Virus record (IMG/VR): IMGVR_UViG_3300049914_000058
Coordinates: 1 to 54,032 of that record
Direction: 5' to 3' (one strand)
DNA: 54,032 nt
DNA from: a virus
The position numbers and the translations under genes were made by a program. Shown here piece by piece: positions 291 through 54,032 of the stretch. Position 1 is the stretch's first letter. Each line of letters starts with the position of its first letter. The notes under the pieces are model-generated. The model had not been told where the DNA came from and did not search any database. It was given only the letters and a program-made list of their open reading frames with translations.

Positions 291-662
291 ATGGAAACTC
301 CAAACTTTGCCGACCTTGATATTTGCGAAAACTTTATGCGGGATATTAAATGGCACGGTGATGAGCCTGCCTGCCCGCATTGCGGCAGTAAACGAATTGG
401 CGAAGTAAAGACCCGCCGCTTGCTCCGCTGTAAAGACTGCCGCAAACAGTTTTCGTCTAAAGTCGGAACGATTTTTGAGGACAGCCCGCTTGGTTTGGAT
501 AAGTGGTTTGTGGCTGTTTGGGCTATCGCAAATTGCAAGAACGGAATCAGTAGCCACGAGCTTGGCCGTGCAATCGGCGTTACACAAAGGACGGCTTGGT
601 TTATGTTGCACAGAATCCGTGCTGCTATTGATAACGACGCAGGATTTATGGGAAAGGTTTAA
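291..662 (+). CDS. IS1595-type transposase N-terminal Zn-ribbon/HTH protein lacking the DDE domain
   Basis: The 123-residue product matches the DNA-binding half of IS1595-family transposases. A zinc ribbon has C28xxC31 and C47xxC50 with the typical RCKDCRKQFS block, followed by the VGTIFEDS motif. A helix-turn-helix region at about residues 85-112 contains the characteristic GVTQRTAWFMLHRIR. In full transposases the ISXO2-type DDE domain starts right after this helix; here the frame stops 11 residues later. It could therefore be a truncated transposase, a transposition repressor, or a domesticated phage regulator. It lies 7 bp after the upstream gene and 4 bp before the next, as in an operon. 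Confidence 0.85.
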   Translation: METPNFADLDICENFMRDIKWHGDEPACPHCGSKRIGEVKTRRLLRCKDCRKQFSSKVGTIFEDSPLGLDKWFVAVWAIANCKNGISSHELGRAIGVTQRTAWFMLHRIRAAIDNDAGFMGKV

Positions 663-666
663 AGTT

Positions 667-804
667 ATGGAAGAAAATCGCAGACCAAAAGGAATTGGCA
701 AATTTACAGAACTGCTAAGCAGATTGGTCGCTGTCCCAAAAGAAGCGGTCGAGCAGAGAATCGCCGCCAAAAAAGCAGCTCGCAAATTACGTCTTAAAAA
801 ATAA
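667..804 (+). CDS. Small basic protein downstream of the transposase fragment
   Basis: 45 residues, very rich in Lys and Arg at the C-terminus (AAKKAARKLRLKK). The central block LLSRLVAVPKEAVEQR resembles small helical proteins often found beside IS1595-type transposases, by my recollection of such pairs. The ATG at 667 lies 4 bp after the preceding stop. A longer frame from 475 would overlap the Zn-ribbon gene and is unlikely. Function unknown; it is probably a small DNA-associated partner. Confidence 0.6.
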   Translation: MEENRRPKGIGKFTELLSRLVAVPKEAVEQRIAAKKAARKLRLKK

Positions 805-834: not shown

Positions 835-862
835 ATTTTGGTGCGTCAGGTGATTTATTACC
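835..862 (-). repeat. Right terminal inverted repeat of IS1595-like element
   Basis: Reverse complement matches 53498-53525 at 23 of 28 positions and includes the identical core TGACGCACCA. It lies in an intergenic region and is followed directly by AAAAAATA at 863-870. Confidence 0.6.
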
Positions 863-44842: not shown

Positions 44843-44972
44843 TACTTGCGCAAAGAAAAAATACGGCTGTTGGTGTAAAGCCTATTCTGAATGGCTTTAT
44901 GATGATAGTTTGCCAGAACCGATTTTAGAAAAGAAAGGCAATGAATCATTTGACGCACCAAAGGGAAATTGA
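44829..44972 (+). CDS. Small Cys-rich protein containing a copy of the inverted-repeat core
   Basis: 47 residues: CDTCAKKKYGCWCKAY at the N-terminus resembles a small zinc motif. The C-terminal codons (ESFDAPKGN) contain the same 17 bases, at 44944-44960, as in the left end of the IS1595-like element (53505-53521). The next gene starts at its last base. Confidence 0.6.
   Translation: MKPCDTCAKKKYGCWCKAYSEWLYDDSLPEPILEKKGNESFDAPKGN
44944..44963 (+). repeat. Third copy of the IS1595-like terminal repeat core
   Basis: 17 identical bases to 53505-53521, containing TGACGCACCA, and further bases matching the right end. It is inside a coding sequence and no partner end is nearby. Confidence 0.4.
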
Positions 44973-45721
44973 TGGCTGGAATAGATAAATATATAAATAC
45001 GACAATACGGGCCGACTGCAATATCTTAAATTTGTATGCCGGAATAGGCGGTAATCGCAAATTATGGGGAGACAACCATAAGATAACCGCAATAGAAATA
45101 GACAGCAATATTGCTAAAGCGTATCAGCGATTATACCCCAATGACACGGTTGTAATTGGGGACGCGCACGAATATCTATTGAACCATTACGCAGAATTTG
45201 ATTTTATTTGGAGTAGCCCGCCCTGTCCGAGCCATAGTAGGGCGAGATTTGGCTTTGGCGTTTGTGGACATGGATATAAGTATATTTATCCTGATATGAC
45301 ATTGTATCAAGAAGTTATTTTATTAAAACATATATTCAAAGGCTTGTTTTGTGTTGAAAATGTAATCCCGTACTATAATTATCTTATCAATCCCAGTGTG
45401 GTTATAGGTCGCCACGCCTATTGGAGTAATTTTTTTATACCATTCAAGAAAATTAGCACTAATAATATGATTGCTGGAAATACAAAGCCACCACACAAAT
45501 TATCTTCATTTTATGTAACGGGGGAGAGGCCTTATTTGGAAGAATTGTATGGACTTAATTTGGGAGAATGTGCCGGATTTGACAAAAGAAAAGTTTTAAG
45601 AAATGCGGTTGACCCAGAAATAGGAAAATATATTTTAGACGCAGCAATGAATGTTCCCGTTAAAGAAGCAAGAAAAGGACAAAAGGCGTTATTTGAATTA
45701 ACGGAAAAAGGAAAGACTTAA
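44972..45721 (+). CDS. DNA cytosine-C5 methyltransferase
   Basis: 249 residues, shorter than typical. Motif I ILNLYAGIGGNRKLWG, IEID motif II, SSPPCPSHSR motif IV (catalytic C85) and VENV motif VI (129-131). The target-recognition region (about 150-220) is short. An orphan enzyme: no cognate endonuclease gene beside it. It probably protects phage DNA from host restriction or alters host regulation. Start ATG 44972. Confidence 0.88.
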   Translation: MAGIDKYINTTIRADCNILNLYAGIGGNRKLWGDNHKITAIEIDSNIAKAYQRLYPNDTVVIGDAHEYLLNHYAEFDFIWSSPPCPSHSRARFGFGVCGHGYKYIYPDMTLYQEVILLKHIFKGLFCVENVIPYYNYLINPSVVIGRHAYWSNFFIPFKKISTNNMIAGNTKPPHKLSSFYVTGERPYLEELYGLNLGECAGFDKRKVLRNAVDPEIGKYILDAAMNVPVKEARKGQKALFELTEKGKT

Positions 45722-51034: not shown

Positions 51035-51613
51035 ATGGAAATATGGACACAAAAGGATGTAGACGCTGTAAAGCCAGATAGTGTTGGCGTTAGACATTAT
51101 CCAGCAGATAGCAGCTTTGCGAAGTGGTGCAGCTTTGCGAAGGGGTGTAGCTTTGCGGAGTGGTGCAGCTTTGCGGAGTGGTGCAGCTTTGCGGAGGGGT
51201 GCAGCTTTGCGGAGGGGTGCAGCTTTGCGGAGTGGTGCAGCTTTGCGGAGGGGTGCAGCTTTGCGGAGTGGTGCAGCTTTGCGAAGGGGTGCAGCTTTGC
51301 GGAGTGGTGCAGCTTTGCGAAGGGGTGCAGCTTTGCGGAGTGGTGCAACTTTAAGGAGAGGTGTGAAGCCATTTCTCCATTTTGGAGTTTTGTTTATGAA
51401 CCATCTTTCAAAACGAAAGGTATGATATTACCTCCGCGTGCCTGTCGTGAATTCTGGCAGGAAAAACTTGCGAAATTTAACCTTGATATCATAACGGATA
51501 ATCCTTGTTATGAAGAAATAGCTTCAATAATAAAACCGAAGTTGGCAGAAATTCTTAAAGATAAAAACTGGACAAAATGTGAAAGAAGAATCCTCGAAAG
51601 CTGGAGTAAATAA
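51035..51613 (+). CDS. Tandem hexapeptide-repeat protein
   Basis: 192 residues. From residue 27 come 13 units SFA(E/K)(W/G)C and one degenerate NFKERC. Flanks are a short N-terminal cap and a C-terminal domain (PPRACREFWQEKLAKFNLDI) with helices. A 6-residue periodicity suggests a beta-solenoid with a Cys-lined ladder. AAGGAG lies 8 bp before the ATG. Function unknown. Confidence 0.7.
   Translation: MEIWTQKDVDAVKPDSVGVRHYPADSSFAKWCSFAKGCSFAEWCSFAEWCSFAEGCSFAEGCSFAEWCSFAEGCSFAEWCSFAKGCSFAEWCSFAKGCSFAEWCNFKERCEAISPFWSFVYEPSFKTKGMILPPRACREFWQEKLAKFNLDIITDNPCYEEIASIIKPKLAEILKDKNWTKCERRILESWSK
51113..51346 (+). repeat. 18-bp tandem repeat, 13 units, in-frame
   Basis: Unit AGCTTTGCGGAGTGGTGC, with W/G and E/K variants; in-frame and 234 bp long, then one diverged unit (51347-51364). 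Not a CRISPR array. Confidence 0.93.
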
Positions 51614-53324: not shown

Positions 53325-53491
53325 ACCCATCGCCTGAGAATCCGGAAGGGATTAAGTGTCCGAAGTGTAAGGGGGATAAGTCTGCTGTATATTGCACTGT
53401 CAAAAGTATGGATAAAATAGTGCGGCATCGCAAATGCTTAAATTGCAGAAAGATGTTTTCAACAATAGAAAAATTAGCGGGTCAAACCTAA
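53321..53491 (+). CDS. Stand-alone NrdR-type Zn-ribbon protein
   Basis: 56 residues. IKCPKCKGDKSAVYC (C13, C16), then RHRKCLNCRKMFSTIE (C39, C42) is the zinc ribbon of NrdR (pattern CPxC ... RRRxCxxCxxxFTTxE). The ATP-cone domain is absent. It might bind DNA or act as a decoy against host NrdR control of ribonucleotide reductase. Last gene before the left inverted repeat. Confidence 0.7.
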   Translation: MNPSPENPEGIKCPKCKGDKSAVYCTVKSMDKIVRHRKCLNCRKMFSTIEKLAGQT

Positions 53492-53497
53492 AAAATA

Positions 53498-53525
53498 TGT
53501 AACAAATCATTTGACGCACCATAAT
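53498..53525 (+). repeat. Left terminal inverted repeat of IS1595-like element
   Basis: Matches the reverse complement of 835-862 at 23 of 28 positions with identical core TGACGCACCA. AAAAAATA (53490-53497) directly precedes it and recurs at 863-870 after the right repeat. Confidence 0.6.
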
Positions 53526-53634
53526 TTTGTTTATTTTCTTGATTTTGGACTAAAATACCCATATATTTAACTCCTGAAATAATAACGAGTTATAACAATT
53601 ATTAAAAACGAATATAAAATTGCGAACTTTGCAC

Positions 53635-53663
53635 TTGACACACCGTATATAATAATAGATAAG
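53635..53663 (+). promoter_or_regulatory. Candidate promoter for the element's operon
   Basis: TTGACA (53635-53640), 17-bp spacer, GATAAG (53658-53663); a TATAAT at 53648-53653 is an alternative -10 without a good -35. A GCCC-GAAA-GGGC tetraloop hairpin lies downstream (53698-53709) just before the ribosome site. Confidence 0.45.
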
Positions 53664-53730
53664 GAGTAATTAACAAGTTAATAACAAATTTTGAAACGCC
53701 CGAAAGGGCAAAAATTGAAAGGGTAAAAAA

Positions 53731-54032
53731 ATGGAAGCAACAATTCAAATTAAGACGAATCGTATTTATTTTGAGCAATTTGAAGCTCCGTGCGGTGAGC
53801 CGGAAGTAACTGAAATCAAGCAGGCTTGGGCGGCTGCAATTTATGAGGTAATTGAAAAGGCCGGTTTTGTGGCAGAAACTAAAATCGGCGTAGGATTTGA
53901 CCCCGCTGTGCAAAAAATAGTTGTTACCGATTTTTCTGGTGAGTGCGATTGCGAAAAATTGGACAAAGATTGCGAGTGCGGCCATAAGCCAGAACTGCAA
54001 GCCTTTGCAGAACTTTGTGAGAAATATGGCAA
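53731..54032 (+). CDS. Acidic Cys-containing hypothetical protein, N-terminal part (continues at 1)
   Basis: ATG 53731 with GAAAGGG 5-11 bp upstream; the frame is open to the window end. It is the 5' part of the 130-residue gene that finishes at 283. The N-terminal 40 residues contain YFEQFEAPCGEPEVTEIK and a helix, then GFDPAVQKIVVTDFSGE. Function unknown. Confidence 0.8.
   Translation, partial: MEATIQIKTNRIYFEQFEAPCGEPEVTEIKQAWAAAIYEVIEKAGFVAETKIGVGFDPAVQKIVVTDFSGECDCEKLDKDCECGHKPELQAFAELCEKYG
53841..54032. repeat. Right copy of 192-bp terminal overlap
   Basis: Identical to 1-192 except 53905 (G) versus 65 (T); a frame-preserving Ala/Ser change. Shows the contig closes on itself. Confidence 0.93.

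Follow-up and report, generated by a model that had tools for sequence, protein, structure and literature searches.

The 1205-bp unit that straddles the junction of this circular phage genome is best read, at a probability of roughly 0.7, as a non-autonomous deletion derivative of the IS1595 family, a cassette moved in trans whose remaining product would be InsA-like. In the scheme we propose, ordinary DDE transposition would have brought an IS1595-family element into the phage, and an internal deletion joined the DNA-binding N-terminus of its transposase to the last ten codons, removing the catalytic domain; a passenger gene and a small basic gene were retained after that deletion. Movement would be possible only with a full-length IS1595 transposase acting in trans, now or before the left terminal base changed, with an element of a Phycisphaerae/Sedimentisphaerales host as the most plausible source. 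The surviving zinc-ribbon/helix-turn-helix (Zn-ribbon/HTH) protein would bind the two ends as well as an end-like sequence inside the element, ahead of the operon that encodes it, and, once bound, would lower transcription and block full-length transposase. Coordinates are those of the window, the whole 54,032-nucleotide stretch of viral DNA analysed (IMG/VR record IMGVR_UViG_3300049914_000058).

The two ends of the contig overlap by 192 bp with a single mismatch (T at 65, G at 53905), and this overlap closes a circle of ~53.84 kb in which, as the initial annotation had proposed, a 1205-bp unit runs from 53498 across the junction to 862. Its left terminal inverted repeat (TGTAACAAATCATTTGACGCACCATAAT, 53498–53525, plus strand) has T as first base where G is usual, and it matches the right one, read inward (GGTAATAAATCACCTGACGCACCAAAAT, 835–862, minus strand), at 23 of 28 positions. 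The terminal dinucleotide is thus GG on the right and TG on the left; nearly all relatives start with GG. Both flanks carry AAAAAATA, at 53490–53497 and 863–870 (8/8 identical), the left copy overlapping the stop codon of an upstream small Zn-ribbon gene. When 8-bp repeats 0.3–3 kb apart were searched for inverted ends matching at 23/28 or better, the real circle yielded one pair of exact direct repeats, and 15 Markov shuffles yielded none (best 17/28). The inverted ends and the 8-bp duplication claimed at the outset therefore both stand, and in combination they are unique against these shuffles. Searches for an empty site gave no counterpart: none of 29 relatives reached via the terminase was syntenic at the element's place, and neither a joined query of four flanking genes nor a DNA comparison with phage records returned a match. 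It is from the ends and the duplication only that we infer an insertion. No integrase was seen among the ~20 larger open reading frames (ORFs) scanned in the phage; the lytic lifestyle mentioned in the initial annotation is at most presumptive.

Within these ends lie three intact ORFs, each of which had been anticipated. The first, a Cys-rich passenger of 130 aa, starts at 53731 on the plus strand, reaches the contig end at 54032 and continues from 1 to 283, where positions 1–192 repeat 53841–54032; it has no relatives in Pfam, PHROGs, NCBIfam, viral contigs or phage records. The mismatch between 65 and 53905 falls in this ORF and exchanges Ser for Ala, through either population variation or sequencing error. 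The second ORF (291–662, plus strand) encodes a 123-aa protein whose IS1595-type Zn ribbon is recognised by PF12760 (Zn_ribbon_IS1595; 1.2e-9, 38.4 bits against a cut-off of 25.4). It aligns with only positions 3–54 of the 215 in NF033547 (48.5 bits, below the cut-off of 75) and does not match PF12762 (DDE_Tnp_IS1595). Every invariant column of the N-terminal domain is retained, and the structure is predicted with a pLDDT of 88.7, the last residues being of low confidence or disordered; a PDB fold search with the DNA-binding model gave no significant matches. The third ORF (667–804, plus strand) is the small basic gene, of 45 aa, which a profile now identifies as a standard part of this IS group. 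Promoter and terminator scans and an Rfam search returned nothing convincing. With 1205 bp and three intact ORFs, the unit is not a MITE, i.e. a short element devoid of coding capacity.

The 123-aa protein had been described as stopping where the DDE domain should begin. The domain is indeed absent, but the protein does not simply stop: residues 1–113 (to HRIRAAI), which hold the Zn ribbon and the HTH, are followed in frame by DNDAGFMGKV and the stop codon (630–662), the last ten residues of a normal transposase (compare IDDAGFMGKV in L021 and IDNAGFMGKI in the full-length relative L108). Aligned with L108, the unit lacks ~570 bp, and at the sequence level its transposase gene is shown by these comparisons to carry an internal in-frame deletion of the DDE region. 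Among the four deletions that retain C-terminal codons, this one alone is fused in frame, where chance would predict one in three, and the fusion is hence no evidence of selection. A low Ka/Ks was obtained for the N-terminus; with synonymous sites saturated and much of the divergence, perhaps most, older than the deletion, the ratio is silent on selection after it. A second copy of this exact derivative was sought and not found.

The IS1595 family is said, in the classification of Siguier et al. from 2009, to comprise the groups ISPna2, ISH4, IS1595, ISSod11, ISNwi, ISNha5 and IS1016. Relatives of the 123-aa protein were collected from 54 viral loci and from 282 genome loci, 80 of which were kept; cultured-phage records gave only three matches, all distant. 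Most relatives are full-length transposases of ~320 aa, the nearest having C-termini such as ..AGIDDAGFMGI. At 73 of 152 loci the gene lies between GG..GG inverted ends flanked by exact 8-bp duplications, under a filter that demands GG ends; a looser scan merely favouring GG adds L130 and L173 as plausible elements with another left terminus. The consensus end is GGCAATAATATACTTGACTCACCA. The full IS1595 elements with matching ends that the initial annotation had looked to for comparison thus exist, and their 8-bp duplications are exact. Among the full-length relatives the closest is L108, from a Phycisphaerae MAG; it is 85% identical in the N-terminus, measures 1760 bp, is flanked by TTCCCTTA, carries PF12760 and PF12762 in a normal single chain and has the gene order of the unit. 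The published features of the family are 8-bp duplications, a zinc ribbon and a DDE domain (PMC8101967), and the duplications of ISEc69 are A/T-rich (PMC7835479); the ends and duplications of the 73 elements agree with these features, hence the IS1595-type assignment. The unit itself is, judged by its sequence, an IS1595-type insertion that derives from the family without being autonomous.

The unit is not alone in having lost its catalytic region: four further deletion copies were found, three in phages (L005, L014, L038) and one in a bacterial MAG (L107). L107, a close relative from the Sedimentisphaerales, is a 1448-bp element with ends matching at 24/24, a duplication of ATCATTTT (8/8) and no DDE domain. 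Its deletion borders differ from those of the unit, with MQCE retained after the HTH and the sequence resuming at the stop codon. A shared ancestral deletion can be rejected, since each of the two retains codons absent from the other, which requires at least two deletion events. In L014 (1557 bp, duplication of AAAGCAAG) the beginning of the DDE region survives, and VGDSGFMGIN-stop follows it out of frame; L038, with both ends and no exact duplication, resumes out of frame at VSGKRLTYARAKG-stop; L005 retains ~32 positions of the DDE region ahead of LLAGIDDAGFMTLT, again out of frame. L003 and L005 represent one phage locus, with flanks 99.97% and 100% identical; what separates them is a stretch of 373 bp in the DDE region, cleanly deleted from L005. 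L003 already lacks part of that domain, and this before/after pair indicates that DDE loss can occur in place inside phages. In two other elements the DDE slot holds an HNH_3 endonuclease. One is L226 (495–2624), of the same order as L107, which spans 2130 bp with duplication CAAAAAAA and has a transposase C-terminal relic and the small gene behind HNH_3. The other is the phage locus L037 (3001–3840), where HNH_3 is fused in frame to the HTH and followed by the small basic gene; a right end of L037 was not found. The pattern that recurs is that the DNA-binding half, the small basic protein and the ends stay, with the slot either deleted (five cases) or occupied by HNH. The idea that DDE loss is commoner in phages than in bacterial genomes was considered and set aside: raw phage counts are higher but include many one-ended remnants, and among two-ended copies we claim no such enrichment. 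It is conceivable, if rather unlikely, that DDE-less IS1595 elements form a recurrent functional class of self-limiting repressors, carried by phages and dependent on transposase from other elements, in which the DNA-binding half would have the small protein as its functional partner.

That small protein, with its core F..LL..VV.VPK.E...K and a basic tail, is recovered by a profile built from nine seeds at 95 of 152 loci and in 52 of the 73 verified elements. It is 40–50 aa long, and its gene follows the transposase in nearly all cases and may lie on either strand (e.g. L108 3923–4054 and L107 3386–3514); Pfam and NCBIfam hold no match. Members of the IS1595 family have been described with a single transposase gene (PMC8101967), so the small gene seems to be a partner that has been overlooked, and it may be an accessory gene general to the group.

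A further shared feature lies between the left end and the first gene. At 53632–53644 (plus strand) the unit carries CACTTGACACACC, an internal copy of the terminal-repeat core that contains TTGACA (53635–53640). The unit shares with L107, L108 and L226 such a sequence close to the core of the ends (CACTTGACACACC in the unit, compared with CACTTGACGCACC); it precedes the first gene and lies 131–134 bp inward of the left end. Scored at 12 or more within ~170 bp of the left end (shuffled rate <0.5%), such a copy is present in 16 of 23 passenger-first elements versus none of 48 transposase-first elements (p = 8e-11, an optimistic value given shared ancestry). Downstream of this TTGACA, simple scans did not reveal a convincing -10 box. 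The copy is possibly an operator or promoter element.

How such elements would move without a catalytic domain is suggested by other cassettes. Viral contigs were scanned twice by pattern for ends of the window type, which gave 71 loci, among which only two are two-ended with exact duplications, both lacking a transposase: L072 (8446–8934), of 489 bp, with an ASCH-domain gene and ATTCATTT duplicated 8/8, and L104 (700–1440), of 741 bp, with an N6/N4 DNA methylase and ATAAAAAA duplicated 8/8. The intact ends and duplication of L107 fit mobility in trans, and L107, L104 and L072, all DDE-less with good ends and 8/8 duplications, may together point to such movement, albeit only indirectly. For the unit itself, transposition may already be impaired by the T at its left terminus. 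The same phage also holds, in the region 44929–45721, a solo IS1595-type terminus (GGCAATGAATCATTTGACGCACCA, 44937–44960, plus strand), which agrees with the right end of L108 at 24/24 positions and scores 29.0 versus at most 15.7 in shuffled windows. Directly behind it is a C5-type DNA methylase gene (44972–45721, plus strand; PF00145, 2e-7), possibly the cargo of a one-ended cassette; neither a right end nor a duplication was found downstream, and methylase relatives in other phages lack such an end. Elsewhere in the window, 51035–51613 encodes a 192-aa ORF with many SFAEWC-like pentapeptide-type repeats.

The solo terminus is also what one would expect if the unit were an inert relic, its truncated transposase and small gene functionless and the copy decaying in the phage. 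The altered TG end, the commonness of one-ended DDE-less remnants in phage contigs (L018, L022, L029, L050) and an in-frame fusion that chance would produce one time in three all sit comfortably with decay, and we regard it as a substantial possibility, if somewhat short of an even chance. What a decaying copy would not lead one to expect is three intact reading frames and a DNA-binding domain with all its invariant residues. Nor does it explain why the right breakpoints in all five deletion elements (the unit, L005, L014, L038, L107) fall at a distance of 0–14 codons from the stop of the transposase gene, immediately ahead of the small gene, which suggests that the downstream part is worth keeping.

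The initial annotation had also entertained domestication, in which the Zn-ribbon/HTH protein would serve the phage's own gene control. In its favour, the predicted DNA-binding fold is intact and the operon has been retained in a compact phage genome; but a domesticated gene is one kept without mobile ends, and here both ends and a perfect duplication are present, so that the element looks recent. The phage has no strong end-like site elsewhere other than the solo one at 44937, and no other phage was found with the gene at this locus without the ends. Domestication is accordingly improbable. Still less probable is an assembly artefact, in which the 192-bp overlap would have joined two IS copies into a chimera. 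The overlap lies wholly inside the element and contains one mismatch, the classic site for such an error, yet AAAAAATA is identical on both sides, which independent insertions would rarely share, and the ends agree at 23/28; the matching duplication, taken with an overlap located inside the element, argues that the circle is genuine. A bipartite transposase, with a DDE half encoded elsewhere in the phage to cooperate with the DNA-binding half, is barely credible: the N-terminal and catalytic domains are separable in principle, but tblastn of the DDE domain against the window matched only the ten-residue C-terminal relic, and L108 has the normal single-chain arrangement, which largely refutes the idea for this phage; a stand-alone DDE protein would have to come from the host. 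As a DDE domain is missing from the unit and from the rest of the window alike, the unit's proposed non-autonomous status is borne out, as is, by its IS1595-type ends and 8-bp duplication, its origin as a mobile module.

The preferred reading, a non-autonomous IS1595 derivative, finds its parts in three known systems. Passenger genes are known in the IS1595 family (PMC8101967, PMC3129680, PMC7835479), with which the unit shares an 8-bp A/T-rich duplication, inverted ends and an N-terminal zinc ribbon plus HTH; it differs in lacking the catalytic DDE domain, in its TG left end and in its second conserved small gene. Mobile insertion cassettes (MICs, e.g. MIC231) consist of IS ends around passengers, and their movement is ascribed to a related transposase (PMC3129680). 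Like these and transporter IS, the unit has IS ends around genes without a functional transposase, whereas a MIC normally lacks transposase sequence and the unit retains the DNA-binding half and the C-terminal codons. Its architecture places it midway between an IS and a MIC. As their ends and duplications show, catalytically dead IS1595-type cassettes circulate in environmental phages, some with cargo such as DNA methylases, and the L003/L005 pair means that the catalytic region can be lost in place; the comparison also brings to light a second IS1595-group gene that had gone unannotated, as well as a candidate operator resembling the ends.

The third system is IS1, whose InsA protein has a zinc finger and an HTH and no DDE domain, represses a promoter overlapping the left end, and acts as a competitor of the transposase at both ends, lowering transposition ~1000-fold (PMC12428005). 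The 123-aa protein likewise combines a zinc finger and HTH without DDE and would be expected to recognise the ends, and the unit has an end-like sequence upstream of its operon (compare PMC12428005). As the same parts are present and the same part is absent, InsA-like binding and repression would be its likeliest function, although by analogy we hold a role as repressor or competitor tentatively, at a little under even odds. InsA is made from an intact IS1 alongside InsAB', which arises by frameshifting, whereas the 123-aa protein is the product of a deletion and the unit can give no full-length product. The parallel to the IS1 InsA repressor would thus have been reached by deletion instead of frameshifting.
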